From Desulfurobacteriaceae bacterium (GTDB lineage Bacteria > Aquificota > Aquificia > Desulfurobacteriales > Desulfurobacteriaceae): 48,644 nt of DNA. Every line of letters begins with the position of its first letter. Position 1 is the first letter of the stretch. The stretch spans positions 1 to 48,644 of the forward strand of contig JALTBO010000130.1 of assembly GCA_027075275.1 (NCBI GenBank), written 5' to 3'. Below, in pieces: positions 18,326-47,403 of the stretch. The notes below the pieces were generated by a model. It saw only the letters and a program-made list of their open reading frames with translations, was not told the DNA's origin and did not search any database. A program made the position numbers and the translations under genes.

Positions 18326-19253
18326 AGGCCCTTATTATCTCCTGTACCAATCTGTGTCTTACAACGTCTTCCCTTGAGAACTCAACTATTTCAATTCCTT
18401 CAATGCCTTTAAGTATCTTTGTAGCCTCTACAAGCCCGGATACTTTGTTTGAGGGTAGGTCAATCTGTGTCACATCTCCTGTGATGACAACTTTTGACCC
18501 GAATCCCAGCCTTGTGAGGAACATTTTCATCTGCTCTCTCGTTGTGTTCTGGGCTTCGTCAAGGATTATGAATGCATCGTTAAGCGTTCTTCCCCTCATG
18601 TAGGCAAGGGGTGCTATCTCAAATATGTTCCTCTCTAAGTATGAATTAACCTTCTCAGGTTCAATCATCTCAAAGAGGGCATCGTAGAGGGGTTTAAGGT
18701 ATGGGTCTATCTTTTCCTGAAGGGTTCCGGGGAGGAATCCCAATTTCTCTCCGGCTTCAACGGCCGGTCGGGTAAGGATAAGTCTGTTTACAAGGCCTCT
18801 TTTGAAGTATGAAACGGCAGCAGCAACAGCCAGGTAGGTCTTTCCCGTTCCTGCAGGACCTACACCGAAAACGATGTCGTTCTTTTTTATCGCCTCGTAG
18901 TACTTCTTCTGCGTAGGGGTTTTGGCGATTATCTTTTTACCTCTGTAGGTTGTGACTATTACATCTCCAGTTGACTCTTTTACTTTTGACTCTTTCCTTG
19001 CAGAGAGCTGAGTGAGGTACATGTCAACGTCTGCTTTTGTGAGTTTGTGACCTGATTTTACGAGCTCTTCAAGGTCTTTAAGGAACTGTTTCGCCTTTTC
19101 CTCGCTCTCGGAGCTCCCGTTTATCATTATCTCATTTCCCCGGGAGCCCATTTTCACGTTCAGTATTTGAGCAAGTTTTCTCAGATTTTCTTCGTGGTGT
19201 CCTACAATTGTGTAGAAGTCTTCAGGTTCAAGCTCCAGAATTACCTTTATCAA
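18294..19253 (-). CDS. phoH: PhoH-family ATPase
   Basis: A PhoH-like NTPase of about 319 aa, linked in the literature to RNA metabolism and often encoded next to ybeY or pgpH. A KH-like N-terminal region precedes the P-loop domain with Walker A GPAGTGKT (about 132-139) and Walker B FIILDEAQ (about 228-235). ITGDVTQIDLP is a further family signature. I favour the TTG at 19253, which has GGAGG 5 bases upstream; an ATG at 19265 would add four residues but has no ribosome site. It overlaps both neighbours. Confidence 0.9.
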   Translation of the reverse strand: MIKVILELEPEDFYTIVGHHEENLRKLAQILNVKMGSRGNEIMINGSSESEEKAKQFLKDLEELVKSGHKLTKADVDMYLTQLSARKESKVKESTGDVIVTTYRGKKIIAKTPTQKKYYEAIKKNDIVFGVGPAGTGKTYLAVAAAVSYFKRGLVNRLILTRPAVEAGEKLGFLPGTLQEKIDPYLKPLYDALFEMIEPEKVNSYLERNIFEIAPLAYMRGRTLNDAFIILDEAQNTTREQMKMFLTRLGFGSKVVITGDVTQIDLPSNKVSGLVEATKILKGIEGIEIVEFSREDVVRHRLVQEIIRAYEEYERTKEN

Positions 19254-32477: not shown

Positions 32478-32609
32478 TTAGTGGCCTCCAAACAAGTGGT
32501 GATAAGCAGTCATAATCAAGGTGATAAACATAAAGATGTACAGGATTATCTCAACAGCGGCCATCCATTTTCTAAAGCCGAAAACTGTTCTTAAAGCTCT
32601 GCTGGCCAT
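32478..32609 (-). CDS. 43-aa single-helix membrane protein of the cytochrome operon
   Basis: A short gene after the 49-aa gene with a strong GGAGGAG ribosome site. It encodes a basic N-terminus, one transmembrane helix (about 17-38, with EIILYIFMFITLIM) and a His-rich C-terminal end (AYHHLFGGH). The His cluster near the membrane face could bind haem or quinone; that is speculation. Small membrane subunits of this size accompany several quinol-oxidising cytochrome complexes. No family recognised. Confidence 0.68.
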   Translation of the reverse strand: MASRALRTVFGFRKWMAAVEIILYIFMFITLIMTAYHHLFGGH

Positions 32610-32618
32610 TTCTCCTCC

Positions 32619-32768
32619 TTAGAGCCACATAAAGATGGACTGTGAGTACCAGTGTACAAACTTAACAAACCACACTCCAAGAATTGGAAGAAGAAGGACT
32701 GAGAGTGTGGCTATCAGAACTATCCATGCCTCTTTCTCTATATCCCTTGAGCTTACTTCTCTTGCCAT
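32619..32768 (-). CDS. 49-aa single-helix membrane protein of the cytochrome operon
   Basis: A short gene 16 bp after the 24-haem cytochrome. The ATG is preceded by AGGAGG. It encodes a charged cytoplasmic N-terminus (SSRDIEKEAW), one long transmembrane helix (about 14-38) and an aromatic tail (HWYSQSIFMWL). It is translated just before the 43-aa gene. Probable accessory membrane subunit of the electron-transfer complex; no family recognised. Confidence 0.7.
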   Translation of the reverse strand: MAREVSSRDIEKEAWIVLIATLSVLLLPILGVWFVKFVHWYSQSIFMWL

Positions 32769-32784
32769 TTCCTAACCTCCTATC

Positions 32785-35463
32785 TTATCTGTAGGAAGGG
32801 TTTTTCTGGTGAACTTTTTCTGTGTGGAACAGTTTGTACCTGTAAAGCGCATCAAGACCATGGCAGTCTACGCAGATGCTACCTTTAAGGTCTCTGTTTC
32901 TTAAGAAGCTGTTAAGAGCATTTCCTTCAACCGGCTTGCCTGGAGTATATTTTGTCCACTTGCTCCAAACGTGAGGATCGTGGCAGGTTTCACATGCAAT
33001 TTCACCGCCTACATGAACCTCTTTGCCGTCTTTTGTGAACAGAGGCCAGTCGCCTTCCCTTCCCGGCCTATCAAAGTTCCTTACAACAACGTCTTTGTGT
33101 GGGTGGTAGTAGTATTTAACAACCTTTTCACTTCCTACGCCACCCTTACTATGGCAAGTCAAACAGTAGTTTGACATTCTGTTGTCGGTTATCTTCTTCA
33201 CATCTGTAGCCCACAGGAGGCTGTCTTTTGCCCTGTGGGGAACGTGGCACGCAGAACATACTCCGTCTTTAAGGACTTCCTCTCCGAGAGCGTTCTTGAA
33301 GTTCTTCTTAACTACTCTCATGTCGTGATCTGTTCCTATAACTGCGGCTTCCTTAACGTGGCAGGCTGTACAGAGGGCACTGTCTCCTTCCACCGTGTAC
33401 CTTGTCAGTCTCTTCCTGTCGGCTCCGTTGTGTGGGTCGTGGCAGGTTGCACAGTCCATAATGCCAACTTCGCCTTTTTTAGCAGGGTGGCCTGTCATCT
33501 GGTTTATGAGAGGAAGCCTTGAGTTTTCTATCATTGATAGGTTCTTCTCTGTAACTTTACGTCCTATTGGATGGGTAAATTTACCTACTGTTTTATCTTC
33601 AGCCAGTTTACCTTTAGCGTGGCAGGAGAAGCAGAGTTTTTCTCCTATTGTTTCTCCTTTTCCAGGTTCTCTACTCCAGAGAACTTTAAACTTCGGATTG
33701 TGGGGAGTATGGCACGCAGAGCAGGTTCCGTTTTTGGTCAGGTTTTCTCTCTCTTTCTCTGTCAGTTTGACGTTGGGGTTGTTGAGCAGGTCGTGAGGTG
33801 TTCCTTTCAGGTTTTCATCTACGTGGCAGGTTAAACAGAGTTCTGAGTTGCCTCTTACAGGTATTCTGAGCAGAACCTCTTTATGGGTGTGGGGATCGTG
33901 GCAGGTTGCACAGGAGACCTTCTTGCCCGGAAGTTTGTCGGTAGGGTTGTCAACTCCAACAGGGTGTTCGTTGAATACGCTCTGTTTAACTTTATGTTTA
34001 GCCATTCCTTCAGGGTCGTGGCACGCCAGGCAGAACCCATCAACCGGCGGTTCCATAGGAGAAGTCTCTCCGTAGACAACCCTTGAGAGGTATCCACCTT
34101 TTGCTTTGTGAATGTTGTGGCAGGCGGCACAGTCTCCTTTCTTCCACTTTTTCTTATCAATTTCGGCGTGAGGTCCGTTCTTAACGTCTGCTTCTTCCCT
34201 ATGGCACGTATAACAGAGTTTTAGTCTTGGAGCTCTCAGGAATTTCCCTTTAGGGTTGTTATCAAAAGAGTGGTGTGGATCGTGGCATGTTGTACAGGCC
34301 AGTCTGTTTCCGGGAAGTGGAAGTTTAAGGTTTATCTTCTCTTTGAGTTTAACTCCAGTTGGGTGAGTAAGCGTTCCGACCGTTTCTACCTCTTTTCCGT
34401 CAATTACATGCTGCGGGTAGTGACAGGAGAGGCAGAGTATATCCGTTTTGCCCTTTGCATCAATCAGTGCTGCGTAGTCAAAAGCATCTTCAGGTATTGG
34501 TCTGCTCCAGAGATCCCTTCCTTTTGCCCTGTGGGCAACGTGGCACGTTTTACAGGAGTTCCCATCTACGTTGTGCTTGGTCTTTAAGACAGCCTTTTCC
34601 TGAATGTGGCACAGTATACAGATTCTCTTTTCATCGGCAACCAGGAGGTGTCTGTTTTCCTCTTTGTGAACTTTATGGCAGGTCATACACTCAACAGATG
34701 AAGTAACCGCTTTCTGCTCTTTGAAGAAACTTACGTCTGCTCCTTTCGGGAATTTTCTGTGGATTGGGTGGTTCCTGAAGTTGGGGTGTTCTTTTGAGTT
34801 GACGTTATCTATATGGCAGACTGCACAGAGCTGTGAGTTTTTCGCCGGCTCAATTAGTGCCTGGGGAGCTCTACCCCTGTGGGCGGAGTGGCAGGATTCG
34901 CACTGAACCTCTCCATTTCTGGTTACTTTTCCTCCCAGCTTTTCAACTTCCAGAGCGTACTCCAGTTTTAATTTGCCTTTCGTATCTCTTAAAATTGGGT
35001 GGTTCAAGCCGTGTTCTGCATTCTGTTTGTGACACTTTATACAGAGTGCAGAGTTAACGTTGGGCTCTCTCATAAATGTATAATCAAGTTTTTTCTCACT
35101 TCCCGATTTGGTATGGGGAGTATGACAGGTTCCACAGTATAGTTTCCCGTTCAGTAGAGGGAACCCTTTTGGGATTTTGAAGTTTTCGGGAACTTTCTTG
35201 TCTACGGGGTGGGAAAAGTGTTTGAATCCAATAAATGTTAACCTGTCGTCTGCCATTGAACCATCGTGGCAGGATAGACACATCAACCTGTTAGCTGCGG
35301 TAAAAGATTCTGTAGTTAAGAGGTCGGGAGATTTAATCTTTGCCTCAAGGAGCCAGTTTTCATGGCAAACCAGACACTCTTTTTTCATACTCTTTTTGAG
35401 CTTTGCTTCTGAAACCCCTGGAACCACTAAAACGGTTAGAAGGATAAGAAGCGATTTTCTCAT
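32785..35463 (-). CDS. 24-haem c-type cytochrome
   Basis: An 892-aa exported cytochrome with 24 CxxCH motifs, about one per 37 residues, each a covalent haem c site. The signal peptide is about 1-20 (GVSEA). Haem sites recur in pairs in the doubled-CxxCH style, often as CxxCHDPH or CxxCHxPH, and many isolated His residues could be distal ligands. Repeated blocks such as GNRLACTTCHDPHHSF and GNSELCLTCH suggest internal duplication. There is no lipobox or C-terminal anchor, so it is periplasmic or secreted. It probably forms a long haem wire. Coupled upstream to the NHL gene, with AAGGGG before the ATG. Confidence 0.93.
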   Translation of the reverse strand: MRKSLLILLTVLVVPGVSEAKLKKSMKKECLVCHENWLLEAKIKSPDLLTTESFTAANRLMCLSCHDGSMADDRLTFIGFKHFSHPVDKKVPENFKIPKGFPLLNGKLYCGTCHTPHTKSGSEKKLDYTFMREPNVNSALCIKCHKQNAEHGLNHPILRDTKGKLKLEYALEVEKLGGKVTRNGEVQCESCHSAHRGRAPQALIEPAKNSQLCAVCHIDNVNSKEHPNFRNHPIHRKFPKGADVSFFKEQKAVTSSVECMTCHKVHKEENRHLLVADEKRICILCHIQEKAVLKTKHNVDGNSCKTCHVAHRAKGRDLWSRPIPEDAFDYAALIDAKGKTDILCLSCHYPQHVIDGKEVETVGTLTHPTGVKLKEKINLKLPLPGNRLACTTCHDPHHSFDNNPKGKFLRAPRLKLCYTCHREEADVKNGPHAEIDKKKWKKGDCAACHNIHKAKGGYLSRVVYGETSPMEPPVDGFCLACHDPEGMAKHKVKQSVFNEHPVGVDNPTDKLPGKKVSCATCHDPHTHKEVLLRIPVRGNSELCLTCHVDENLKGTPHDLLNNPNVKLTEKERENLTKNGTCSACHTPHNPKFKVLWSREPGKGETIGEKLCFSCHAKGKLAEDKTVGKFTHPIGRKVTEKNLSMIENSRLPLINQMTGHPAKKGEVGIMDCATCHDPHNGADRKRLTRYTVEGDSALCTACHVKEAAVIGTDHDMRVVKKNFKNALGEEVLKDGVCSACHVPHRAKDSLLWATDVKKITDNRMSNYCLTCHSKGGVGSEKVVKYYYHPHKDVVVRNFDRPGREGDWPLFTKDGKEVHVGGEIACETCHDPHVWSKWTKYTPGKPVEGNALNSFLRNRDLKGSICVDCHGLDALYRYKLFHTEKVHQKNPSYR

Positions 35464-36269
35464 TACTTGACCCCTTGAATCTTAAATGTAAGGACTCTGT
35501 TTTTAAGAGGTTCTAAGACAAAGACCTCTCCTTTGTAGCACGCTACGGCTGTTGGATAGTAGAGTCCTTTTGCTACAACTTTTTCAAAGCCACCATAGAC
35601 GTCAAAGAGCTGAACGGCACCTGTAATAGCATCAGAGACGGCAACTGTTCCGTTGCCGCAGTACGCAACACTTTTGGGTCTGAAAAGGTCTCCTTTTTCT
35701 ATACCGAAAACACCAAAGCTGTTTACATAGTTTCCGTTTTTATCAAACTCCTGAATTCTGGCGTTGACAGAGTCAACCACGAAAAGGAGTTTTTTTGAGC
35801 TGTCTATCATGAATATTCCCACAAAACTACCAGGAGTAGTTCCTTTGCCTCCAAAGCTTTTGAGGAATTTCCCGTTCAGGTCGTAGATATCTACAGATTC
35901 TGTTTTCCCGTCTGTTATAAACAACTTATCCTTTAATTTTGCAACGTCTATCGGTCTTCCTTTCAGCTTGAAGGTTTCTTCCACATTTCCCGTTTCGTCC
36001 ATTACGTAAAGCTTTCCTTTCTGGCTTGTTACATAGAGGAGTCCATCTTTTGCCGTTATTCCGAAGGGTGAATCCACTTTTATGTCTGCAAGGTGACGTC
36101 CGTAGAGGTCGTACACTGCTATTCTGCTGTTGAGGCCGTCTACAACATAGAGTTTTCCGTTTGACACCGCTATGTCCGATGGAAACTTCCAGTCTCCTTT
36201 AATCTCTCCAGAGAGAGCTCCTGCTACTGCACTTAACACCAACATAAAAGCTAACAGAAAATTTCTCAT
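35463..36269 (-). CDS. Exported NHL-repeat beta-propeller protein
   Basis: A 268-aa periplasmic protein with a signal peptide (about 1-20, AGALSG) and about six NHL-type blades, seen in repeats like FPSDIAVSNGKLYVVDGLNSRIAVYD split by about 40 residues. Propellers of this kind mediate protein-protein contacts and are common in extracellular electron transfer loci. I chose the ATG at 36269, which has GGGG 8 bases upstream, over a GTG at 36278. The stop shares a base with the start of the 24-haem gene (TAATG). No catalytic residues recognised; a scaffold role is inference. Confidence 0.85.
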   Translation of the reverse strand: MRNFLLAFMLVLSAVAGALSGEIKGDWKFPSDIAVSNGKLYVVDGLNSRIAVYDLYGRHLADIKVDSPFGITAKDGLLYVTSQKGKLYVMDETGNVEETFKLKGRPIDVAKLKDKLFITDGKTESVDIYDLNGKFLKSFGGKGTTPGSFVGIFMIDSSKKLLFVVDSVNARIQEFDKNGNYVNSFGVFGIEKGDLFRPKSVAYCGNGTVAVSDAITGAVQLFDVYGGFEKVVAKGLYYPTAVACYKGEVFVLEPLKNRVLTFKIQGVK

Positions 36270-36281
36270 TACTTTCACCCC

Positions 36282-36995
36282 TTACCAGATAAATTTGGGG
36301 AAGTGAATGGTTTTGTACTCCTCAAGTCCTTTAACTATTTCGTTGTGTTCAAGGTCTTTTACCCTTTCTTCGCTGAAACCTAACGCTCTAAAGTCTAACT
36401 TTCCGTTTGCTTTGTGGCAGTCGTCGCACTTAAGTGGGTGGTCCGTTAGTGCATTATGCATTCTTGCAACAGCTGTAGCGTCCTTTATGAGATTTTCGTT
36501 TCCCTTCAGCGGGAGCTCTACCGGTTGACCGTTGTAGACGGGAACGATTTTTGCGGAGCTCTCCTCTCCAGAGAGCATAATCCTATCTCCAACCTTTATA
36601 TACTTAAGCCCGTAGAAGTCTCCCTTCTTAAGGAGGATAACTTTTCCGTCCTTTATTTCAGCCCAGCTGTAGGTTATTCCCGGCTTAACGAAGTGGCAAA
36701 CGTTGCAGCTCATAAAAGTTCCGTGAGCGTTGTAGAAGGGGGAGAACTTTCTATCTTTCTTATGAGCGGCAAACGTGTGGCAGGCACTACAGACATCGTT
36801 AAGGCTGTACTTGTAGTAGTTCGGTGAGTGGAAAGGCTTTGGGTATTCTTTGAGGTTGGGGAACTCCGGTTTTCTAAACTCTTTCAGTTTCTGTTTCCAC
36901 TCTGCTACGTTGTTTGCAGGAGCGGAGAGGAGCGGATTTTCAGCTGCCAGTGAAGTTATAGGTATTATTAGTGCTGCTATTAGCAACTTTCTCAT
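36282..36995 (-). CDS. Tri-haem periplasmic cytochrome c
   Basis: A 237-aa exported protein (signal peptide about 1-18, SLAA) with three CxxCH motifs: CSACH, CNVCH and CDDCH. The first two lie close together; the third is about 95 residues later, beyond a strand-rich insert without haem. It ends FPKFIW. It starts on the cytochrome b stop (TAATG), with GGAGGG upstream. The coupling suggests that it receives electrons from the membrane complex. No precise family assigned. Confidence 0.88.
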   Translation of the reverse strand: MRKLLIAALIIPITSLAAENPLLSAPANNVAEWKQKLKEFRKPEFPNLKEYPKPFHSPNYYKYSLNDVCSACHTFAAHKKDRKFSPFYNAHGTFMSCNVCHFVKPGITYSWAEIKDGKVILLKKGDFYGLKYIKVGDRIMLSGEESSAKIVPVYNGQPVELPLKGNENLIKDATAVARMHNALTDHPLKCDDCHKANGKLDFRALGFSEERVKDLEHNEIVKGLEEYKTIHFPKFIW

Positions 36996-37927
36996 TATTC
37001 GTTCCTCCCTTCAACTTCCTTCTCAAGAAGGTGGTGAGCATATTCGTGCATTTTCTCTATCATTTCTTCTTCAGGAAGCTTTTCCACTTCAAGGACAAAC
37101 TGGTACCTTTCTTTCAGGAAGGGATACTTCTCTAAGAGGTGAGGTTCGTTCTCTGCAACTGCTTTAATAATTCTCCTGTAACTTCTGGGTCTCTCCTCTA
37201 TCCATTCAACCTCAGAAGCTGTTCCTGTGAGCCATATCCAGTCCATCGGGAACTTGTTAGGACCGTAGTGAACCATGTACATGTGGGCAAGAGCTATCCA
37301 TCCTAATGCTAAAGTTGCCTCATCTGAGTGCATCAGGTATGCTATCTGTATGGTTTCAGGGGGTAAGTGGAGAAAGCCTGTGAAAACCTCCGGAAGCCAG
37401 AGTATCCATCCTGTAATACCGATTGCAACCATACCCCAGCCGACTGCCCAGAAGTCAAACTTATCAACCCAGATGTACTCATCCCAGTCTGGTGGGACTT
37501 TTCTGAATCCCAATAGGTACTTTATATAGTGAACAAAAGTTATGTCTGTTGGTCCTGGAACAATTTTGAAGTAACCAAAGAAGTCTTTTTTTGCGAGATC
37601 CCAGTTGAATATCAGGATAAGTAGACAGTAGAGAACGGTAAGCAGGAAGTCGGAAAACATTATAAATCCAGATACTCTATGGATAGTCATTTCTCCTGAG
37701 ATTCCACCTAATAGTTCAATTAAGGGCCTTGCCCAAGAAGTATCGTAAAACTTGAGGGGATATCCCGTAATTACCTGCCAGATAAATGTGGCAAACATTC
37801 CTACGTGGAGGAGTCTCTGGAAAAGAGTAAACTTCTGTATCATTATCTTCTCACCATCTACGATGAGAAGCTTATCCTGTTCAGGTCTTATCCTGAACTT
37901 TTTCTTGAGTGATTCCCAGAGTCCCAT
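36995..37927 (-). CDS. Di-haem cytochrome b membrane subunit
   Basis: A 310-aa inner-membrane protein of the cytochrome b561 / formate dehydrogenase gamma type. Four helices are evident (about 38-57, 86-108, 160-180, 203-222). Candidate b-haem ligands are His41 (RLLHVGMF), His83 (TIHRVSGF), His200 (LMHSDEATLALGW) and His215/220 (AHMYMVHY). It would take electrons from menaquinol and hand them to the c-type subunits. It is flanked on both sides by c-cytochrome genes with one-base stop/start overlaps (TAATG). No FdhA or NapA-type catalytic subunit is near. Confidence 0.87.
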   Translation of the reverse strand: MGLWESLKKKFRIRPEQDKLLIVDGEKIMIQKFTLFQRLLHVGMFATFIWQVITGYPLKFYDTSWARPLIELLGGISGEMTIHRVSGFIMFSDFLLTVLYCLLILIFNWDLAKKDFFGYFKIVPGPTDITFVHYIKYLLGFRKVPPDWDEYIWVDKFDFWAVGWGMVAIGITGWILWLPEVFTGFLHLPPETIQIAYLMHSDEATLALGWIALAHMYMVHYGPNKFPMDWIWLTGTASEVEWIEERPRSYRRIIKAVAENEPHLLEKYPFLKERYQFVLEVEKLPEEEMIEKMHEYAHHLLEKEVEGRNE

Positions 37928-39021
37928 TAGTGCTTCCTCCTCAGGTTTTTAAGAAGGTCAAGACCTACTATTACGACTGCAAATAGAAGTACGCTTGTTG
38001 TAAGCCAGAACATAAACTCTTCAACTATCTTAACTATCTTCTGCCCTAAAGAGTCTGGAATGGGATGCATGTGAACCCACTTTGTTGTGGCGAAGTTTTT
38101 CATATCGTACTTAGGAGCAAGTGGGTGGCACTCTGTTGAGCGGCCACAGGTAAGCTCTATGTTTTTAGGGTTGATAGAAGAACGGGGATCGTTTTTGTGG
38201 AAGATGTCGTGGAAATTACCATCTTTGTTTGTATGGCAGTCTAAACAGTCTGCTGCCCTTGTATCGTTCCTGTCTAAGTAGAGCATTTTGGCGTGCATTG
38301 TTACTTTGTAAGACTCAACTGCAGTTAAAACGTGTTCTCTTTCAAACTTGTTGTGTATTCCCTCAATATCAAGGGCTTTTTCCATTTTCTTTTCGTCTTC
38401 ATGACAGGAAGCGCAGAGCTCTACAATCTCCCATCCGTCACGTCTGGTCTTGATAAACTGGTGGGTAAACCCGTTTTTTATGATGGGAATGGGTTCTCTG
38501 CTTGCAACGTGGGAGAGCCTGTCTTTTACCCACTCTTTATTTTCGTGGCAGATTGAACACCTATCAAAGCTCATCTTCATTGATTCAAACTTCGTAACAT
38601 CAACAAGCAGGTCGTTTGTGTGGCAGTAAGTACAGTAGGGGTAGATGTCCGGGGCTTTCTCGTAGTTCTTCCCGTGGACGCTCTCTTTCCACGTTTCATA
38701 AACGTCCTTGTGGGAGAATGGTTTTTTCGTTGACGGATCAATAACGTGACACTGGGTTGCACAGTTAACTTTGCCGCTACCTGGCCTGTGTGGGTATTCC
38801 TCTATGTCTGTGTGGCATTCTGTACATCCCACGTTTCTGTGAACCGAGTGGGCAAAGAGGGCATCTGATATACTGCAGTCTTCCACTCTGTTCTCTTTAT
38901 TAACGATGGAAAGCCCTTTAAGCCTGTGGCAGACCAGGCACCCGTCGTCGGATGCTCCCATACCGAGGGCTGTTCCCGTAATGGCAATTGCCCCTGTTAG
39001 TCCTAATATGAAGGCTTTCAC
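37927..39021 (-). CDS. Membrane-anchored multihaem cytochrome c (6 CxxCH plus two unusual sites)
   Basis: A 364-aa exported cytochrome. The signal peptide (about 1-23) is followed by six CxxCH sites (CLVCH, CTECH, CTYCH, CSICH, CASCH, CLDCH), one CxxxCH (CATQCH) and one CxxxxxCH (CGRSTECHP). A C-terminal transmembrane helix (about 332-355) ending in KNLRRKH anchors it in the inner membrane. Next to the cytochrome b gene, it is the likely first periplasmic acceptor of a quinol-oxidising complex. The start is GTG (39021). Confidence 0.88.
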   Translation of the reverse strand: MKAFILGLTGAIAITGTALGMGASDDGCLVCHRLKGLSIVNKENRVEDCSISDALFAHSVHRNVGCTECHTDIEEYPHRPGSGKVNCATQCHVIDPSTKKPFSHKDVYETWKESVHGKNYEKAPDIYPYCTYCHTNDLLVDVTKFESMKMSFDRCSICHENKEWVKDRLSHVASREPIPIIKNGFTHQFIKTRRDGWEIVELCASCHEDEKKMEKALDIEGIHNKFEREHVLTAVESYKVTMHAKMLYLDRNDTRAADCLDCHTNKDGNFHDIFHKNDPRSSINPKNIELTCGRSTECHPLAPKYDMKNFATTKWVHMHPIPDSLGQKIVKIVEEFMFWLTTSVLLFAVVIVGLDLLKNLRRKH

Positions 39022-39031
39022 TCTCTACCCC

Positions 39032-39907
39032 CTACTTAAGCGAGTTGATGGAGTGGCAAACTCTACAAAGTTTGCCTTTTTTAAGGTCTTTACTCATAAG
39101 CTCTACACCTTTTGTATTGAGCTCAAACCTGTTGAGTTCAAGGTTCAGCTTCCTGAGTTTGTATTCAAGGTCGGCCTTTTCAATGTTAGCCCACTCTTTA
39201 TCTTCAGGTGGCGCCGGTATAGCTATCTGTGGGTGTGGGTTGTGGCAGGTTATACACTCAATATGGCCGTTAACCAGTATAACTTTCGGTTTTCTGCTTT
39301 TTAGAACTTTTTCATCAATTTTCGGCTTTAACTGTTTCATTGAGGTAATCTCTACAATTTCTGCTTTTCCTTTTACTAATTCTTTGACTTTTTCCGGTTT
39401 TGCAAAGAGGTGCTCGGGAGCTCCCACGTGCGGCGTTTCAGTATGGCAACCAACACAGGCCTTGTAGGCTTCAAGCTTTGCTCCAAAACCGTGGCAGTAG
39501 ATACACGCCTTTTTCTTCTCGTTCCAGGGTAATTTGGAAGCTATCGTTTTATGGGGGTTAAACTTTCTGTAGCACTCAGGGTTGTGGCACTGGAAACAGA
39601 AGTCGTACCTGTGTTTAATAGGCCTGTTTGTTCTCAGGAAATCCTTAGTTGAGTTTGTCATGTCGTGGCAGGTTGTACAGGTTAACTTTCCGTCCCAGGT
39701 TCTCGGGAAGTTAGCAGGAACTTTTATACACTTTGTATCCCTTATCTTTACGTCTACAGGGTGTAATACCGGGCAACCTTCTGTATGACACTTCAAACAG
39801 AACTTTGTGTCATACCCGGTATATCCTTTACCCCCACACTCTTTAGACAGAGCGTTCCCGCTGAAAACTATACCTACGATTGCCAGTCCTATCAGTCCCT
39901 TCCTCAT
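39032..39907 (-). CDS. Hepta-haem periplasmic cytochrome c
   Basis: A 291-aa exported cytochrome with seven CxxCH motifs (CLKCH, CTTCH, CFQCH, CIYCH, CVGCH, CITCH, CRVCH). I chose the ATG at 39907, which gives MRKGLIGLAIVGIVFSG, a proper signal peptide, and shares a base with the upstream stop (TGATG). A longer frame from 39961 would bury the signal. A haem-free helical segment rich in Lys and Glu (about 170-270) separates the fifth to seventh sites. Probably a periplasmic carrier between the inner-membrane complex and the porin module. Confidence 0.88.
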   Translation of the reverse strand: MRKGLIGLAIVGIVFSGNALSKECGGKGYTGYDTKFCLKCHTEGCPVLHPVDVKIRDTKCIKVPANFPRTWDGKLTCTTCHDMTNSTKDFLRTNRPIKHRYDFCFQCHNPECYRKFNPHKTIASKLPWNEKKKACIYCHGFGAKLEAYKACVGCHTETPHVGAPEHLFAKPEKVKELVKGKAEIVEITSMKQLKPKIDEKVLKSRKPKVILVNGHIECITCHNPHPQIAIPAPPEDKEWANIEKADLEYKLRKLNLELNRFELNTKGVELMSKDLKKGKLCRVCHSINSLK

Positions 39908-40509
39908 TTTGTCCAGTTCCCCTTTGTATGGCATTCCATACAGAAGCCAATTCTGTGACACCTGCTACACTTGCCAGGGTCGGCAGCTGCTTCTATGCTG
40001 TGGGTGTACTCGTAGTTCCTCGGGTGAACCCTATGCTGAATCGTGTCTCTCCTCTCATGGCACTCTATACAGAACCTCTGTCTGTGGCACTCAGAACACT
40101 TTTTAGGATTTGCCTGGTATGCAAACCTGTGGGTCTTCATCCAGTTGGCTGTTTTGTGGTCGGCCGGTTCAATCTCTTTCATGTTGAAGTGGCAGATGTA
40201 ACACTGGGTTGGAGCGTTTGGAGCAGGAGATTTACCCGGGTTGTTGTGGCAGTAGTGACACGTTACCTTAGAGGGCATGATTATCTTCTTGGAGCCGCTC
40301 TCAGCAGCCTCTATATCTGCCCACGACATTTTAACGTTCATCTTGTGGCAGGGTATACAGCCGTGCTTATCTATAAACTCTTTGTGTTCTCTGTGGTGGA
40401 ACTTTGCAGTTGCTCCAAGCTCTTCGCTGTAGTTAACCTTTCCGTTTCCGCAGGAGCTTACCGCAACAATTATCGTTAAAAGGGTAAGGAGTTTAAGTCC
40501 TTTCCTCAT
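39904..40509 (-). CDS. Hepta-haem cytochrome c lipoprotein
   Basis: A 201-aa lipoprotein cytochrome. The signal ends at lipobox AVSSC, so Cys20 should be acylated. There are seven CxxCH sites (CIPCH, CHYCH, CYICH, CSECH, CIECH, CSRCH, CMECH) in only about 150 residues, a dense packing. CSECHRQRFCIECH and CSRCHRIGFCMECH are a near duplicate pair. It overlaps the porin stop by 4 nt. A lipid-anchored cytochrome beside a beta-barrel is the layout of porin-cytochrome conduits; which membrane it sits in is not shown. Confidence 0.9.
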   Translation of the reverse strand: MRKGLKLLTLLTIIVAVSSCGNGKVNYSEELGATAKFHHREHKEFIDKHGCIPCHKMNVKMSWADIEAAESGSKKIIMPSKVTCHYCHNNPGKSPAPNAPTQCYICHFNMKEIEPADHKTANWMKTHRFAYQANPKKCSECHRQRFCIECHERRDTIQHRVHPRNYEYTHSIEAAADPGKCSRCHRIGFCMECHTKGNWTK

Positions 40510-41771
40510 TTCCTATCCTCGGCCTTTTTTTCTCCCGTTCCGCCCCAGAAAAGGAGGTTGTATCTGAAAATGAATCTGAGGTCGTGGTCAAAGTCTTCGT
40601 TGTTTCTGTAGTCAACTCCGAGCTCTAAGTTGGAGAAATCTGATGTCTGGTAGGTTCCCCTGAGGTAGTACGCCGTTGCCCACTGTCTTCCGTAGGTTAT
40701 CTTGTCATAACGGGCAATGTCTGCTGTTCCGTTAAGTGTTAGCTTTTCACAGATATATTTGGTGAATCCAAGTTCAACTCCCCTCATTATCCCAATCCAG
40801 CTGTTCTGGTAGAGGAGAGCTCCGTAAGCCCTTAAGCCGTTCTCAAACCAGGTATCCCTTACTGCACCAACCTTTGCGAGGTATCCGTTGTCCTTTCCGT
40901 TCCTCTGAACGTCTGTCAGTGTAACGTTTCCAAAGAGCTGCCAGTTCTTGGTTATATCGTAGTAGGCGCTCTGTGTGAAGCGGAGCTCCCTTCCGTTCGG
41001 TGAAAAGAGTGAAAATATCCTGTCTTCCCTTATGCCACCGTCGTAGGTGTAGGATGGGTCATAGTACTCAACTTCTGTGTTAAACCTGAGCCTATTTGTG
41101 GGAAAGTAGTTGAAACCAAAGCTTGCGTTGAGGAGCTCCCCGTGGGCAGCATCAACTTCCAAACGGCTGTACTGGGCAAGTTTTTCTGTTAAATACCTGT
41201 AGTTTCCGAAAACGAAAGAGCTTTTCTTAACTTTACCGTCGTCCCTTAAGTGTTCAAAACCAAAATAGTAGCCTTTGTAGTCAAATTTGAACCCGAAAAG
41301 GAGGTCGTCTCCAGAGTGGGTGTTGGGCTCAAAGAACCTGGGCTTTCCGAGGTAAACTGTGTATGTAAGACCGTTTTTAAGGCTTACATCTAACTTTACT
41401 GCATCGGCAACGTAGGTTTCAAAACCTTCTGAGATGAACTGCCTACCAACAGAGAGGCGGGAGCTCCTGTCTTTGTTCAGAGGGGTTTCAACGTAGAGCT
41501 GGTAGAGGTCTAAATTCCAGTCTGTTCCGTATCCTAAATCCTTCCAGAGCTTACCGTAGAAGTGGAGCTCTGAGTTTCCCTTCAGGTCCCGTATATCCAA
41601 CTTCAGGTAGTTATCAAAAGGGATGGAGTCTTCATCGTAGACGTCCTGTCTGAACTCTATCTGGGTTTTCAGCTCTCCCTCAAACCCGGGAACATTGACA
41701 GCTGCCAGAGACTGAGCGGTAAGAAGACCTATCCCCAGTCCCGCCGTTATTGCTAACCTCTCTATCCCCAC
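40506..41771 (-). CDS. Outer-membrane beta-barrel porin of the cytochrome operon
   Basis: A 421-aa exported protein, first gene of the electron-transfer operon. The signal peptide is about 1-23 (SLAA). The remainder is strand after strand of alternating hydrophobic and polar residues with many Tyr and Phe, about 16-20 strands, and ends in a strand LRFIFRYNLLFW shortly before a charged tail. No known substrate motif. By position it would be the sheath through which a haem protein contacts the outside, as in porin-cytochrome complexes. The start is GTG (41771) with GAGAGGG upstream. Confidence 0.82.
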   Translation of the reverse strand: MGIERLAITAGLGIGLLTAQSLAAVNVPGFEGELKTQIEFRQDVYDEDSIPFDNYLKLDIRDLKGNSELHFYGKLWKDLGYGTDWNLDLYQLYVETPLNKDRSSRLSVGRQFISEGFETYVADAVKLDVSLKNGLTYTVYLGKPRFFEPNTHSGDDLLFGFKFDYKGYYFGFEHLRDDGKVKKSSFVFGNYRYLTEKLAQYSRLEVDAAHGELLNASFGFNYFPTNRLRFNTEVEYYDPSYTYDGGIREDRIFSLFSPNGRELRFTQSAYYDITKNWQLFGNVTLTDVQRNGKDNGYLAKVGAVRDTWFENGLRAYGALLYQNSWIGIMRGVELGFTKYICEKLTLNGTADIARYDKITYGRQWATAYYLRGTYQTSDFSNLELGVDYRNNEDFDHDLRFIFRYNLLFWGGTGEKKAEDRK

Positions 41772-41804
41772 GTTTATCCCTCTCTGCTGGAGCTGTATTG
41801 CAGA

Positions 41805-41834
41805 ATATTACAAAACCCTTCAATTTCCTGTCAA
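41805..41834 (-). promoter_or_regulatory. Strong sigma70-type promoter of the cytochrome operon
   Basis: On the minus strand a perfect -35 TTGACA (41829-41834), an 18-bp spacer and TAATAT (41805-41810) stand 34 bp before the porin GTG. It lies in the 122-bp gap between moeA and the porin gene. The rest of that gap is AT-rich, with no further feature that I can support. Confidence 0.75.
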
Positions 41835-41893: not shown

Positions 41894-43105
41894 TTACAAA
41901 AACTGGTTTAACAGAAGAACCTTTACTCTTTCTTTCACCTCAACAGGTCCTTTTCCTTCTGGAACAACGGCAAGACCGTCTGATTCTACAAAGCTCCTGA
42001 AAATAGAGGTTTGCTGACTTCCTCCGCTTCTTACCTTCAGACAGCCGTTTTCCTCCCTTACATTAACCCTTATAAAATCAACCCTGTGAGGTCTTGACTT
42101 TAACCTTTCTTCTGCAACTGCTTCAGTGTATCTGTTCTCATAATTTTCAATCCCGGCCATTTTTCTTACAGCTGGTATAAGGAACTCTAAAGCGTTAACT
42201 GCTGCCGCAGTTGGGTAGCCGGGAAGTCCAAAAAAGAGTTTGTTTTCTCGTTTTCCGAAGACCAACGGCCTTCCCGGCCTTATGTTCGTCTGCTTGAAAA
42301 AGATCTCCACTCCAGCCCTGTGGACAACCTCTTTTACGAAATCGTACTTGCCCTTTGAAACTCCACCGGTTGTTATCAGAATGTCAACGTAGTTCAGCCC
42401 ATCTTCAACTGCCCTGAGGAGAGCTTCAGGTTCATCTTCAGCCCTTCCAAGCCTTACCGCTTCACCTCCGGCCTTTTCTACAAGGCTTTTAAGCAGGTAG
42501 TAGTTTGAGTTGTAGGCATACCCTCTTTTAAAACTCTCCCAGGGTTCAAGAATCTCATTTCCCGTTGTTAGAATGCCAACTTTCGGTTTTCTGAAGACTT
42601 TAACGGCGTAAATGCCAACGTAGGCAAGGAGAGAAACTTTTAAGGAGCCAAGGATTTCTCCCTTTCCAATCAGAACCTCTCCCTTTCTTATCTCGCTCCC
42701 CTTGAAGTTTATAAGGGCTCCCGGCTCAACGGGAAAATCAACGATTACCCTGTTTCCTTCCACCTTTACATCTTCAACCCTTACGGCTGCGTCTGCTCCC
42801 TCAGGTATCTCTCCGCCGGTCATTACGAAAACAGCTTCTCCCTCTTTAACCTGTTTTCTCTCCGTGTCTCCGGCTGCTGTCTCTCCAACGATTTTCAGCT
42901 CTGCAGGGAGTTTTTTAAGGGAGGAGCTCCTGAATGCAAATCCGTCTATTGCCGATTTGTTTACGTCCGGAACGTCTATCGGCGAAACCACGTTTTCTGA
43001 CAGAACCCTCCCTTCGGCTTTTTCCAGAACTACCAGCTCAGTCTCTTTAACCGGTTCTGTGTTCTCTGAGATAATCCTCTTCGCCTCTTCCCACTTCACC
43101 TTCAT
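41894..43105 (-). CDS. moeA: Molybdopterin molybdotransferase MoeA
   Basis: A 403-aa enzyme that inserts molybdate into adenylyl-molybdopterin to finish the cofactor. Family blocks are present: DVNKSAIDGFAFR near the N-terminus, GAVFVMTGGEIPEGADAAVRVED-like VMTGGEIPEGADA, TTGGVSKGKYDFVKE in the MoCF domain, and GLPGYPTAA. I chose the ATG at 43105, giving MKVKWEEA with GGGAGA upstream and a TAATG overlap with the preceding gene, over a GTG at 43159. Last gene of the molybdenum operon. Confidence 0.93.
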   Translation of the reverse strand: MKVKWEEAKRIISENTEPVKETELVVLEKAEGRVLSENVVSPIDVPDVNKSAIDGFAFRSSSLKKLPAELKIVGETAAGDTERKQVKEGEAVFVMTGGEIPEGADAAVRVEDVKVEGNRVIVDFPVEPGALINFKGSEIRKGEVLIGKGEILGSLKVSLLAYVGIYAVKVFRKPKVGILTTGNEILEPWESFKRGYAYNSNYYLLKSLVEKAGGEAVRLGRAEDEPEALLRAVEDGLNYVDILITTGGVSKGKYDFVKEVVHRAGVEIFFKQTNIRPGRPLVFGKRENKLFFGLPGYPTAAAVNALEFLIPAVRKMAGIENYENRYTEAVAEERLKSRPHRVDFIRVNVREENGCLKVRSGGSQQTSIFRSFVESDGLAVVPEGKGPVEVKERVKVLLLNQFL

Positions 43106-44127
43106 TACGGTCTCCCGAACGGACAGATTGGGAATACGCAAACCGGACAGTTGTGGCACAGGCCTCCGTGGCCTTTCATCGCAACTTCCTCTTTCGTGAT
43201 AACGTCTCCCACTAAAAGCCTTGGAAGCCAGATGTCAAAGGAGGTTGCTTTGTAAAAGAGGGCTGCTGCCGGGACTGCAACAACGGGTTTTCCCTTAACC
43301 CATCCCATTGTAAGCATGTTTCCCGGCTGGATAGGGTTTCCTCTTATAAAGTTCTCGGCTCCGGCTTCTTTAATTGCTCTGTATGTGACGTCATCTGGGT
43401 CAACAGACGTTCCGCCAGTTAGAACCACTATGTCGTATTTGTCTGCAAACTCCTCTATCTTCTGCCTTATCCTCTCCTTATCGTCTGGCAGTATCACTTT
43501 TTCCTCAACGGAACACTTGAAGAATTCCAATTTCGGTTTTAACCTGTCGTAGAACTTATCCTTTATCCTTCCAGAGTAGACTTCGTTTCCGGTTATTATC
43601 ATTCCGGCCTTTTTCTCTGTAAACGGAATGACTTTCATTATTCCGTTTCCTGCTATCTTTACAGCCTCGTCAACCTCCCTCTTTGGAGCAACTAAGGAGA
43701 TAATCCTTACGGCTGCAACCTTTTCTCCCGGCTTTACGTACATGTTTGTGTGGATTGTTGGGCAGGAAGGCTCACCAACCATGTTGAACTGAAAAAGCTT
43801 CTCAACATCTACCTTAAACAGGCCGAAAACCTGTGAGTAGATGTTTATCTTTCCCTCCTTTGGTTCCTCGTCTCTGTAGAGGTTCTCTCCCATGAGGGCA
43901 TCTGCCAGCAGTTTTGCCGCGTCATCTTCGTGGATTTCGTCTTCTGAGAGTTCTAAAACGTAGATATACTCCTTTCCCAGTTTCTTGAGCTTCTCAACAT
44001 CTTCTGGCTTTATTACGTGTCCTTTTTTGAAGGCTCTTCCTTTAAATCCTCTTTCAGGGTCAACCTCTGTGATGTCGTGAACCAGAACCATTCCGACAGC
44101 GTCTTCAACCTTTACCTTTTTCTTCAT
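43105..44127 (-). CDS. MoeA-like molybdopterin-binding protein with Cys-rich tail
   Basis: A 340-aa protein of the molybdopterin-binding (MoCF) superfamily. The N-terminal part opens [16 protein letters not shown] like MoeA; the MoCF block [16 protein letters not shown] follows, then [12 protein letters not shown]. The C-terminus carries four cysteines in [15 protein letters not shown], a possible metal site. It is a paralogue encoded directly before moeA, and such pairs are known near molybdate transport genes. It could handle a distinct metal or cofactor-loading step, for example tungsten; that is inference. Confidence 0.85.
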
Positions 44128-45173
44128 TCTTCCTCCTCAACTATGCATATCTGTTCTGCGGAAAGGTGAAGGGTTGTTTTTTTTCCTTCTTCCAGTATGT
44201 AGTTTGGAGTAAGACTTAACGGAAGGTGGAGCTCCACCTCCTCTCCCTCCATTTCAACCTGAAGGAAGAGTAAATTTCCCATTTTCTCAACTCTCTTGAC
44301 CAGAACTTCAACTCTGCTGAACTCTGTTGCCGGGGAGAGGGCAGCTGACATGGGAAGTATGGAAACGGTTACTTCCTGACCGGCTTTCAGGGGAGTTCTC
44401 CTTTTAAGTTTCAGTCTCAACTTGCCTTTAACTTCAACTACTGTAAATTCTCTATCTGTTTTAACAACCTTCCCTTTCAGGAAGTTTTTGTGACCTAAGA
44501 GTTTTGCTATTTTAACCGTTTTAGGAGAGAAGAAGACCTCTTCCGGGTTTCCTTCCTGAACGTTTTTTCCATTCTCAAGTATTACCACCTTTTTTGCCAA
44601 TCTTAAAACCTCATCAAAGTCGTGGGTAACCAGGATAACTCTCTGGCTGAACCGCCGGGTTATTGTGAGGAGCTCCCTGTAAAGGTTCTCCTTTAAAGAC
44701 CGGTGGAGAGCGGAAAAAGGTTCATCCAATAGGAGTATCTCCGGTTTTCTCATGATAGCTCTTGCAAGGGCTACTCTCTGTTTCTGGCCTCCGGAGATCT
44801 GGGCGGGCAGTTTATTCAGGATGTCGCCGATTTCAAGGAGCTCTACCACTTCTTTGAACAGGTTTTTATCCTTTGAAGAGAAACAGATGTTCTCCTTTAC
44901 AGTCATGTGGGGAAAGAGAGCATAGTCCTGAAACAGGTATCCTACGTTCCTTTTCTGAGGGGGGACATTGATTTTCCCTTCTGAACTGAAAAGGATCCTG
45001 CCGTTTACCTCAATTTTCCCTCTTTCAGGCTTCTGCAGGCCGGCTATCATCTGGAGAGTTACAGTTTTTCCCGAGCCAGATGGAGCAAATAGGGCTGTTA
45101 TTTCTGCATCTGAGCAGAAAGAGACGCTGTAGTTAAAGTTTTTAAGCCTTTTTTCTGCCTGAAATCTTAACAT
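44124..45173 (-). CDS. modC: Molybdate ABC transporter ATPase
   Basis: A 349-aa ATPase that powers molybdate (or tungstate) import. Walker A is APSGSGKT (about 31-38), the signature is [14 protein letters not shown], Walker B LLLDEP, and the switch His is in VTHDFDE. A C-terminal regulatory TOBE-like region (about 235-345) is the Mo-binding type found in ModC. It overlaps modD by 7 nt and the next gene by 4 nt. A 16-bp perfect palindrome around GGAGCTCC lies in its 3' part (44224-44239). Confidence 0.9.
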
Positions 45174-46009
45174 GGGACAATTTCTACCTTTACATCAATT
45201 GGTTTACTGAAGTAAACTGAGGTAAGAACCAGAAAATCAGCACCGCTCTTTGCAAATTCTTCAACGTTCTCTTCTCTAATTCCTCCGGCTGCTGCTATTT
45301 TAACCTGAGGATTGTGGCTGTCTCTGAACCTGACAACCTCTTTTATCTCTTGAATAGAGAATTTATCCAGCTGAACGATGTCTGCTCCTTTAACTATGCA
45401 TTCAAGGGCTTCCTCTACCGTTTCTGCTTCAACTATTATCTTCTTCTCAGGAGCTTTTTTCTTGAGGAGGGGGAGCTCCTTTAAAACGTTTTTAAGCCCA
45501 CCCTTTAGAACGGCGTGGTTCCTGAAAATTAAAACAGTTTCAGAAAGGCCCAAACGGTGGGGGAGAGCTCCCCCGCACAGAATTCCTTTAATACAGATCT
45601 TCTTTGCTAATGGAAATGTTTTCCGTGTTGTAAATACCTCTATCTGAGGGTTAATGCTCTTTGCTTTTTCAATCAGCCTTCTGGTTCCCGTTGCGATTCC
45701 ACTGCAGTACTCAAGAAGGTTCTGGCATACCTTCCAGACTTTGTGAACGTTGTCTCCCCTTCCCTTTCCCGATATGATTACTTCTCCCTTTTCAACTGCG
45801 GTTCCTGACTCTACTACTTTTTCAACCTTAACGTTAAACTTCTCAAATATCCTTGCACACTCTTCCGTTCCGCAGACTACGGAGCTCTCTCTTACAGAGT
45901 AGATAATTTCAGCTTCAGTATTTTTCAGATTTAAAAGGTGAGAAGTTAAGTCAAAGTAGGGAACGTCTTCTTCTATAAGTCTTTCTATTTCAGCTTCCGT
46001 TAACCTCAT
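45167..46009 (-). CDS. modD: ModD, quinolinate phosphoribosyltransferase-like protein
   Basis: A 280-aa homologue of nicotinate-nucleotide pyrophosphorylase (NadC) of the ModD branch, found with molybdate transport genes. NadC-type blocks are present: [52 protein letters not shown] and [10 protein letters not shown]. The link to molybdenum use rests on gene context; its reaction is not established. It overlaps modB by 20 nt and modC by 7 nt. Confidence 0.9.
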
Positions 46010-46679
46010 TGTCCCTCCTTTCCGTTAGCTTGTTTACTGTGAAGATGATTATCAGTGAGATAACAGCGATAACAGCCGTCAATGTGTTTGCTCTTTCAAA
46101 GTTTCCGTCTGAAACGGCGCTGTATATCTCAATGGGTATGGTGTTTGTTTTGAAAGGAATGTTCCCTGCAAGCATGAGGGTTGCTCCGAATTCGCCGATA
46201 GCCCTCGCAAACGAGAGAACAGTTCCGGCTATTATTCCTCTCTTTGCAATGGGAAGGACAACTCTTAGGAAAGTTTCAACCTCTCCTTTCCCGAGGGTGT
46301 AGGCGGCGAAGATGAAGTTTCGGTTTACGGCTTCTATGGAGCTCCTTGCTGTTTTTACAAAGATCGGAAAGGCTGCAACAGACGAGGCAACAACGGCTCC
46401 ATACCAGGTAAAGATAATTCCCGTTTTGAAAAGCCTGTAAAGAACCTCTCCGATGGGGCCGTTTTTACCGAGGAGAAGAAGGAGAAGGTAACCTGTAACT
46501 GTTGGAGGGAAGACCAGAGGTAGTGTTATGAGTGTATCTATCAGGTTCTTTAAGGGAAGCTCTTTTGTTGCAAGCAAGTAAGATAACGGAAGCCCTATGA
46601 AGAAAACGGTAATCGTTGAAACTGTAGCAACTTTTAGCGAAAGCTCTATTGAAAAGAGCGCTTCACTGTCAAGAACCAT
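45990..46679 (-). CDS. modB: Molybdate ABC transporter permease
   Basis: A 229-aa inner-membrane permease with about five helices. The permease/ATPase coupling loop [20 protein letters not shown] and [20 protein letters not shown] are ModB hallmarks. I chose the ATG at 46679 ([17 protein letters not shown]), which overlaps the modA stop by 11 nt and has AAAGG upstream; a frame from 46745 would prepend 22 residues lying inside modA. Confidence 0.92.
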
Positions 46680-47403
46680 TTTCAACCTTTCTAAATCCAA
46701 ATTTGTTAAAGGTGGAGCTCCCTGTTTGTAACAGGGCTTTCTCAAATTCCCTGCACTCCTTTAAATTCCCTCCCTTCACACAGCCTACGTAAAACCTGAT
46801 AGGAGTGTGAAGCCTGTCCGGAAAGATTTTTATGAGTTTTACCCTGTCTCTGAACTTGAAGTAGTCGGAATAGTAAACAATTCCAAGATCAGCGTTTCCC
46901 GTCATAACCCATACTGTTATCTGTCTGACGGTTGGAGCGTAAATAAGTCTATCTTTAACCTTCTCGTAAATTCCTAAGTTTTTTAGTGTTTCAACTGCGT
47001 ACTTTCCTACAGGAGCAAGTCTATCTCCTACAGCTATTCTTTTTGCGTCTGTCACTCTTTTAGCTTTTCCATCTCTTGGAGCTATTAAAACTAAAGAAGT
47101 TTCTGCAAAGGGTTTAACAGTTTTCCCGTTGAGGGCTCCCTTCTTTACTCCGTAGTCAATCCAGAACTTTGAGGCGGAGATGTAAACGTCTGAGGGAGCT
47201 CCCGCTACTATCTGGTTAATAAGTTTCCCTGAAGATGAGAAATTAAAGATAACCTTTTCTCCCGTCTCTTTCTGGAATTCCTTTCCTACCGTTTTAACGA
47301 GCTCTTTCGTTCCCAATGCTGCGGAGATGAGGAACTCCTTTCCGTATGTGGCTGATGAGAATAGCAGGAGAGCGAGTATTGTAAAATAGAGTCTTAGAAC
47401 CAT
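46669..47403 (-). CDS. modA: Molybdate-binding periplasmic protein
   Basis: A 244-aa substrate-binding protein for molybdate or tungstate. The signal peptide is about 1-21 (ATYG). The opening [24 protein letters not shown] and [16 protein letters not shown] are ModA landmarks supplying oxyanion-binding Ser and backbone contacts. It is the first gene of the operon. Its ribosome site GGAGGTG (47408-47414) is complementary to a CACCTCC segment in the upstream hairpin, so translation may be riboswitch-controlled. Confidence 0.93.

Follow-up and report, generated by a model that had tools for sequence, protein, structure and literature searches.

Porin–cytochrome (Pcc) gene clusters were reported from two members of the Desulfurobacteriaceae, Thermovibrio ammonificans HB-1 and Desulfurobacterium thermolithotrophum DSM 11699, by Shi, Fredrickson and Zachara in 2014 (PMC4245776). 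That account places both clusters in Pcc Group III together with Denitrovibrio and proposes that they serve extracellular reduction of elemental sulfur (S0). It gives 18–22 strands for Pcc porins and 5–14 haems for their periplasmic cytochromes, notes an outer-membrane c-type cytochrome in most, not all, clusters, and describes the cytoplasmic-membrane cytochromes of the two species (Theam_0871 and Dester_0351) as 79% identical, with six CX2CH and two CX3–5CH motifs. Here we analyze a ten-gene operon on the minus strand of a 48,644-nucleotide stretch of contig JALTBO010000130.1 (the whole stretch is called the window), from a 1.48-Mb metagenome-assembled genome of a heat-loving vent member of the Desulfurobacteriaceae (Aquificota; 136 contigs, 87% complete). 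Our reading is that the operon probably encodes a menaquinone-linked conduit across the whole envelope, carrying electrons outward and most likely to sulfur. The system itself is not new, as orthologous clusters were published with the same interpretation in 2014 (PMC4245776); what is new is the confinement of the porin to this family among 136 Aquificota genomes, the two-module construction of the operon, and the occurrence of its core in four genomes in which no molybdopterin oxidoreductase match was found and in D. thermolithotrophum, a species that makes no use of nitrate. Published background beyond the Pcc clusters draws on parts of PMC5441870, PMC12724263, PMC3570795, PMC3368423, PMC12307469, PMC12016550 and PMC12133095.

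Comparison with described porin–cytochrome systems

The ten genes, g1–g10, run from 41771 to 32478. A preliminary description, made from the sequence alone, had listed their products as a barrel, several cytochromes, an NHL propeller and two small membrane proteins, and all ten were recovered at the positions given there. Orthologous operons occupy one locus in T. ammonificans (L040) and one in D. thermolithotrophum (L035), each with the same ten genes by BLAST, a g1 that is 68% identical to that of the window, and an anchored subunit with six CX2CH and two atypical motifs. The D. thermolithotrophum locus differs from the window in its 28-haem g8 and in its genomic neighbourhood. The 22 strands predicted for g1 lie within the range of 18–22 for Pcc porins, and g2, which overlaps g1 by 4 bases, has seven haems, within the range of 5–14 for the adjacent cytochrome.

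The Pcc (OmbB–OmaB–OmcB) and Ext systems of Geobacter sulfurreducens, likened here by description, also place a porin-like protein beside a multihaem periplasmic cytochrome; compared with Pcc, g2 has 7 haems rather than 8, and the quinol module lies in the same operon. No 12-haem OmcB-like surface cytochrome was identified in the operon. Geobacter CbcBA and CbcL are described as inner-membrane bc-type cytochromes for low-potential menaquinol oxidation and resemble the operon, again by description, as bc-type menaquinol complexes, whereas the b subunit of the operon, g5, aligns with FdnI of Escherichia coli. MtrCAB and MtoAB share the trans-outer-membrane logic. Their MtrB-type barrels, however, are predicted to contain 28 strands, and MtrA carries ten haems (PMC4245776), against 22 strands in g1 and 7 haems in g2. 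With the MtrA/DmsE decahaem model TIGR03508, g8 scored 134.6 bits against 192.2, the score being spread across its repeats, and g2 gave no match. Partial matches of g8 were also found to 6r2q chain A, which we take to be Shewanella baltica MtrA, though the listing labels the chain otherwise.

The outer-membrane module

The first gene, g1 (40506–41771, minus strand, as are all genes of the operon), encodes a predicted outer-membrane, porin-like beta-barrel of 421 residues without a haem motif. Structure prediction, a check that the preliminary description had proposed, was carried out with AlphaFold2 and gave a barrel of 22 strands with a mean predicted local distance difference test score (pLDDT) of 80.7. 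The protein found no match in Pfam, in NCBIfam or in a profile search of PDB sequences, and its structural matches are outer-membrane barrels. The best 50 matches from VIA-align are generic barrels (TonB-dependent receptors, the OprD family, ushers and AlgE); those with low root-mean-square deviation (rmsd) are TonB-dependent receptors, with Z 15.8–18.9 and rmsd 3.9–5.0 Å over 329–358 residues, as in 5t3r_D (Z 18.9, rmsd 3.9, 358 aligned). A porin–cytochrome barrel is not among these best 50, which shows nothing either way. TonB-dependent receptors have 22 strands and hold a globular plug in the barrel lumen; because the low-rmsd matches are these plugged receptors, it is plausible that the modelled lumen of g1 has room for a small cytochrome.

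A candidate for insertion into this barrel is the 201-residue, 7-haem lipoprotein encoded by g2 (39904–40509). All seven of its CXXCH motifs are invariant in 16/16 homologues, as is Cys20, which follows a signal-like sequence, and the protein scores above the Pfam cut-off for cytochrome c3/c7; its profile retrieved two weak, uninformative rows from the PDB. The third gene, g3 (39032–39907), encodes a secreted 7-haem cytochrome of 291 residues, six of whose CXXCH motifs are invariant in 17/17 homologues and the first in 16/17. As a minor correction, its start is most likely the ATG at 39907, which overlaps the g2 stop, and not the upstream GTG at 39961. Inspection by eye showed no lipobox in either g3 or g8, both of them exported multihaem cytochromes.

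The inner-membrane and periplasmic core

The predicted quinone-facing end of the operon consists of g4, g5 and g6. For g4 (37927–39021), a membrane-anchored cytochrome with a C-terminal helix, the preliminary description had left the haem number between six and eight. Six canonical CXXCH motifs are present, together with CATQCH (CX3CH) and CGRSTECH (CX5CH), and the cysteines and histidine of both atypical motifs are invariant in 21/21 homologues, one of them just 52% identical. The g4 copies of D. thermolithotrophum and T. ammonificans have six CXXCH motifs each and share 79.4% identity; they contain 22 and 25 histidines, respectively, versus the 24 each given in PMC4245776. Searches of the PDB with g4 were uninformative, both as a single sequence (two ribosomal and two NrfA rows, E 0.05–0.43) and as a profile (one row, E 0.72).

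The adjoining g5 (36995–37927) is assigned as an FdnI-type dihaem cytochrome b (b561 class), predicted to be quinone-linked, and the cytochrome b named in the preliminary description is borne out. It matches PF01292 (Ni_hydr_CYTB; E 1.1e-12, 48.5 bits against a cut-off of 30.1) and reaches 29.4 bits with the formate dehydrogenase gamma equivalog TIGR01583, well under the cut-off of 115.85; by sequence, it belongs to the homologous class and is not a formate dehydrogenase subunit. Alignment of g5 with E. coli FdnI in hhalign (91.7% probability, E 7.9e-07, 193 columns) pairs His41, His83, His200 and His215 with FdnI His18, His57, His155 and His169, the ligands of the two b-haems of FdnI, and the four g5 histidines are all invariant in 20/20 homologues. 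In contrast to the FdnI system, the operon has no formate dehydrogenase or iron–sulfur subunit, the partner of g5 is an 8-haem c-type cytochrome, and overall similarity is low. Searches of PDB sequences with g5 gave no match with the single sequence and none at E<=1 with the profile, and are uninformative. On the strength of a weak similarity to formate dehydrogenase b subunits, PMC4245776 suggests that the g4 protein is the cytochrome b subunit. This was considered and set aside: an NCBIfam search at E<=0.1 returned nothing for g4, and it is the adjacent g5 that aligns with FdnI.

Downstream of g5, g6 (36282–36995) encodes a periplasmic cytochrome of 237 residues whose three CXXCH motifs are invariant in 20/20 homologues. 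Next come g7 (35463–36278), an exported NHL-repeat beta-propeller (PF01436, E 1.7e-10; PF17170, E 3.1e-11), and g8 (32785–35463), an 892-residue, 24-haem cytochrome with a signal peptide and a PF09699 match (E 8.5e-61), in which 24/24 CXXCH motifs are invariant in 18/18 homologues; two loci carry a 28-haem version. The last two genes encode membrane proteins of 49 residues (g9, 32619–32768, found in 17/20 homologous loci) and 43 residues (g10, 32478–32609, in 12/20), each with a single hydrophobic helix at residues 16–34.

Canonical CXXCH motifs number 7 in g2, 7 in g3, 6 in g4, 3 in g6 and 24 in g8, giving the total of 47 that had drawn attention to the locus and lying far beyond shuffled sequences: 2000 shuffles of each of these five proteins produced 0.01–0.16 motifs on average and 2 at most. 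Because the CX3CH and CX5CH motifs of g4 are invariant, the operon may accommodate up to 49 c-haems, plus the b-haems of g5. A Pfam scan of the operon proteins found no molybdopterin, nitrite reductase or sulfite reductase domain above cut-off, in agreement with the earlier claim that no terminal reductase domain is encoded.

Gene coupling, promoter and neighbourhood

Operon neighbours overlap or are no more than 16 bases apart: the overlaps measure 4 bases at g1/g2 and g2/g3 and 1 base at g4/g5, g5/g6 and g7/g8, and the gaps at g3–g4, g6–g7, g8–g9 and g9–g10 measure 10, 3, 16 and 9 bases, respectively, so the coupling described earlier holds throughout. A dCMP deaminase gene (from 32477) abuts g10 with zero gap, and read-through of the transcript into it is therefore likely.

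The single promoter proposed earlier also stands. The best scan site, TTGACA-18-TAATAT on the minus strand (41834–41805), has 10/12 consensus matches, and the region contains 14 such sites against a chance expectation of 10.6 ± 3.1, so the scan alone proves nothing; terminator counts are likewise at chance level and are not used as evidence alone. The assignment rests instead on upstream conservation in relatives. TTGACA and TTTTGTAA-AT are invariant in 7/7 aligned upstream regions, with the remaining bases variable, and the start region AGAGAGGG...GTGGGG is invariant in the same seven; two of these regions diverge at many other positions.

The synteny search suggested in the preliminary description shows the gene order of the porin-bearing operon kept in 16/16 porin genomes. 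In D. thermolithotrophum (L035) and in genomes G009 and G014 the operon sits outside the molybdenum/dCMP-deaminase neighbourhood of the window; the flanking genes were inspected at two of these three loci (L035 and L037). Because its order is kept and its neighbourhood differs at three loci, the operon is a real unit and behaves as one with the boundaries first drawn. In the window, genes for molybdenum uptake and MoeA-like proteins lie just upstream of it on the same strand (41894–47403). This neighbourhood is common to many, not all, relatives, so the linkage is probably due to chance.

Distribution and a separable porin module

Within the family, 21/22 genomes have g5, two of them as partial copies at contig ends; the exception is the near-complete genome G012 (98%). 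A g4 profile run over 136 Aquificota genomes gave 21 strong matches and one marginal match (E 3.6e-4). The porin is more restricted: g1 occurs in 16/22 family genomes, and its profile found it in the same number, 16/136, of the Aquificota genomes, all Desulfurobacteriaceae. In 13 of the 16 porin genomes, the window counted, the full set of ten genes was detected, in order; at two loci (L032 and L037) nine genes are present and g10 was not seen, and at another (L041) the contig ends after part of g7.

The six porin-less family genomes comprise G012, G015 (only 62% complete) and the four of one genus, labelled genus g7 and hereafter called the porin-less genus (L039, L042, L045 and the contig-cut L048). 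In this genus a 2-haem lipoprotein takes the place of g2 and g3 is gone from the operon, and the order g4-g5-g6-g7-g8-g9 is intact with a 24-haem g8; L048 holds just the start. An unlinked g3 homologue, 37% identical, occurs in one of these genomes (L100:8237-9016). One genome of a sister family (L047) has only g4-g5-g6-g7 and a 13-haem g8. Because the core persists without the porin in the porin-less genus and in the sister family, the operon consists of a quinol/periplasmic core and a separable outer-membrane (porin) module. The earlier statement that both modules are fused in one operon is thus true of the porin genomes and does not extend to the core, which also exists without the porin. 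A search of the literature on Desulfurobacteriaceae multihaem proteins and extracellular electron transfer and on Aquificota porin–cytochromes found no earlier description of a porin-less core.

A tree of RpoB fragments (21 rows, 6/18 inner branches starred; G000, G014 and G015 left out for want of a full-length fragment) left the family unresolved. A tree of g4, g5 and g6 (20 rows), for which the program issued a long-branch warning, separated the porin-less genus from the clade of porin-bearing operons. The porin could thus have been either gained or lost. In the g4+g5+g6 tree, G017 (L043) also stands apart from D. thermolithotrophum (L035), both being of genus g3; their g8 proteins have 24 and 28 haems, respectively, and their neighbourhoods differ. 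These hints make horizontal transfer or replacement of the operon within that genus possible. A contig scan with the g5 profile returned 11 loci, all Aquificota or Desulfurobacteriaceae; it was keyed on two short motifs, and distant relatives in other phyla could escape it. No match was found in a plasmid collection.

Proposed mechanism and alternatives

A conduit is the best reading of the operon because g1 is a barrel of the 18–22-strand class, g2 adjoins it, and g5 belongs to the quinone-linked FdnI class; the quinol-to-outer-membrane candidate put forward in the preliminary description is upheld as such, in line with the 2014 publication. In such a conduit, g5 with the anchored 8-haem g4 and the 3-haem g6 would form the site of electron exchange with the quinone pool; transfer of the electrons through the periplasm would fall to the 24-haem g8, for which the NHL propeller g7 may serve as a scaffold; and the g1 barrel with the 7-haem lipoprotein g2 would pass them through the outer membrane, the secreted g3 acting as a partner on one face of this step. 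The sequence itself shows the component proteins, their haem motifs, the b-haem ligands, the class of barrel, and the operon with its conservation; assembly of the complex, the periplasmic path, the outward direction and S0 or polysulfide as the usual acceptor are what we infer. The quinone site of FdnI lies on the cytoplasmic side, and because of this position outward flow from menaquinol would consume proton-motive force, whereas inward flow would conserve it. For outward flow driven by the proton-motive force, sulfur, as an acceptor of low potential, would be well suited.

The case for sulfur draws on physiology and gene distribution. The described acceptors of T. ammonificans are nitrate and S0; thiosulfate and sulfite are not used. 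Those of D. thermolithotrophum are S0, thiosulfate, sulfite and polysulfide, whereas nitrate is not used. No molybdopterin oxidoreductase match was found in the four genomes of the porin-less genus and one, with an in-frame TGA, in D. thermolithotrophum; G012, which lacks the operon, has four, one of them in an 896-residue frame of NapA length. Because the core is present in D. thermolithotrophum and the porin-less genus and absent from G012, it is not a nitrate system, and S0 or polysulfide is the acceptor that fits both described hosts, a correlation in a small sample. The study of D. thermolithotrophum HR11 reports that known sulfur reductases are lacking except cytoplasmic TrxR and Nsr, and suggests that cytochromes might hand electrons to polysulfide.

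Several points weigh against this reading. The porin is absent and the core kept in 4/4 genomes of the porin-less genus, three of them 99% complete; because this genus retains the core, the core has some use without the g1 outer-membrane step. The AlphaFold2 model of g2, built from 16 sequences, is unusable (pLDDT 46, predicted template-modelling score 0.36). In the HR11 proteome, as reported, three c-type cytochromes (GFV12_RS01165, RS01210 and RS02640) change with H2, and these may or may not belong to the operon; for T. ammonificans, the published proposal is that Sqr or Nsr handles sulfur. Other multihaem proteins of the family, including the HAO-class octahaem proteins, could be the true sulfur-compound reductases.

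The persistence of the core without a porin, in the porin-less genus (4/4, one contig-cut) and with a 13-haem g8 in the sister family, would also fit g4–g8 as a periplasmic complex for a soluble acceptor (polysulfide, thiosulfate or sulfite), with the porin module an accessory admitting or exchanging electrons outside. The lack of molybdopterin oxidoreductase matches in the porin-less genus and the use of all three compounds by D. thermolithotrophum point the same way. We nonetheless regard this explanation as unlikely: Pfam and NCBIfam reveal a catalytic domain in no core protein, T. ammonificans is described as using neither thiosulfate nor sulfite while possessing the whole operon, and all seven g2 haems are kept in the porin genomes, where they would be superfluous in a simple pore.

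The resemblance of g5 to FdnI raises the question of direction. In E. coli, FdnI physiologically reduces quinone, drawing its electrons from the periplasmic side, and g5 aligns with it at all four haem ligands. By analogy, minerals, metal sulfides, cathodes or partner cells could feed electrons through g1–g3 to menaquinone at g5, with energy conserved, and the described relatives are autotrophs. Both of these relatives were, however, characterized growing with H2 as donor, and PMC4245776 knew of no pcc cluster in an Fe(II) oxidizer as of its writing; an inward conduit thus seems distinctly improbable. Service in nitrate or nitrite respiration, to which the NapA-length molybdopterin oxidoreductases of many family members and the weak, below-cut-off matches of g6 to NapC/NrfH/NrfB-type proteins might point, is refuted by the present distribution and deserves almost no credence: the core occurs in D. 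thermolithotrophum, a species that makes no use of nitrate, as well as in four genomes that gave no molybdopterin oxidoreductase match, G012 has matches to that family and no core, and T. ammonificans and G009 have separate 4-haem cytochromes within their Nap regions.

The outward, sulfur-directed conduit can be taken one step further, as a tentative and less probable proposal. The core (g4–g9) might be a separable, perhaps older respiratory module, a menaquinol-to-24-haem chain in which an FdnI-type b subunit runs backwards and proton-motive force is spent to drive electrons to low-potential sulfur, the porin module (g1–g3) having been added in one clade to make an extracellular wire; this would supply the missing route of sulfur respiration in the Desulfurobacteriaceae.

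Other multihaem proteins in the family

An octahaem HAO-class cytochrome is encoded a few genes before NapA in T. ammonificans (L109:5306-6685; G013:C2:381305-382684) and at L069:1312-2703, and matches to it, some distant or partial, occur in 21/22 family genomes. By sequence it is a candidate for the nitrite-to-ammonium step, described as unresolved in the paper on T. ammonificans. Another HAO-class octahaem protein, of about 510 residues (L107:9139-10692, L104:7665-9191, L105:7800-9389 and L108:8707-10236) adjoins an NrfH-like 4-haem protein (L107:10711-11244) in a genome of the porin-less genus and is present as two near-identical copies in D. thermolithotrophum; it is a candidate sulfite or thiosulfate reductase.

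Very large open reading frames with seven CXXCH motifs (1377 and 1191 residues) stand behind a short, 1-haem exported frame in the source genome (C112; L098:4805-8938 and 8957-9421) and in D. thermolithotrophum (L035:15604-19179 and 19198-19596), in the latter on the opposite strand, immediately downstream of the operon. Each may be a cytochrome of the cell surface, or else the two frames may represent a single gene broken by a frameshift. The porin-less genus also has a different cluster, in which 8-, 5- and 6-haem proteins are accompanied by a prolyl isomerase of the PPIC type (L092:9105-14867; partial in L093 and L094), with no obvious barrel at the L092 locus.

Implications

The route of sulfur and thiosulfate reduction in the Desulfurobacteriaceae has been called unclear in the literature on the family. 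The operon occurs in nearly the whole family, cultured strains included, which makes the question of sulfur reduction testable, and the natural porin-less variants allow the quinol/24-haem core to be compared with and without an outer-membrane conduit. The added interest of the locus lies in its modularity and its FdnI-type quinone subunit: if g5 does work outward, these bacteria would spend proton-motive force to reach a low-potential solid acceptor.

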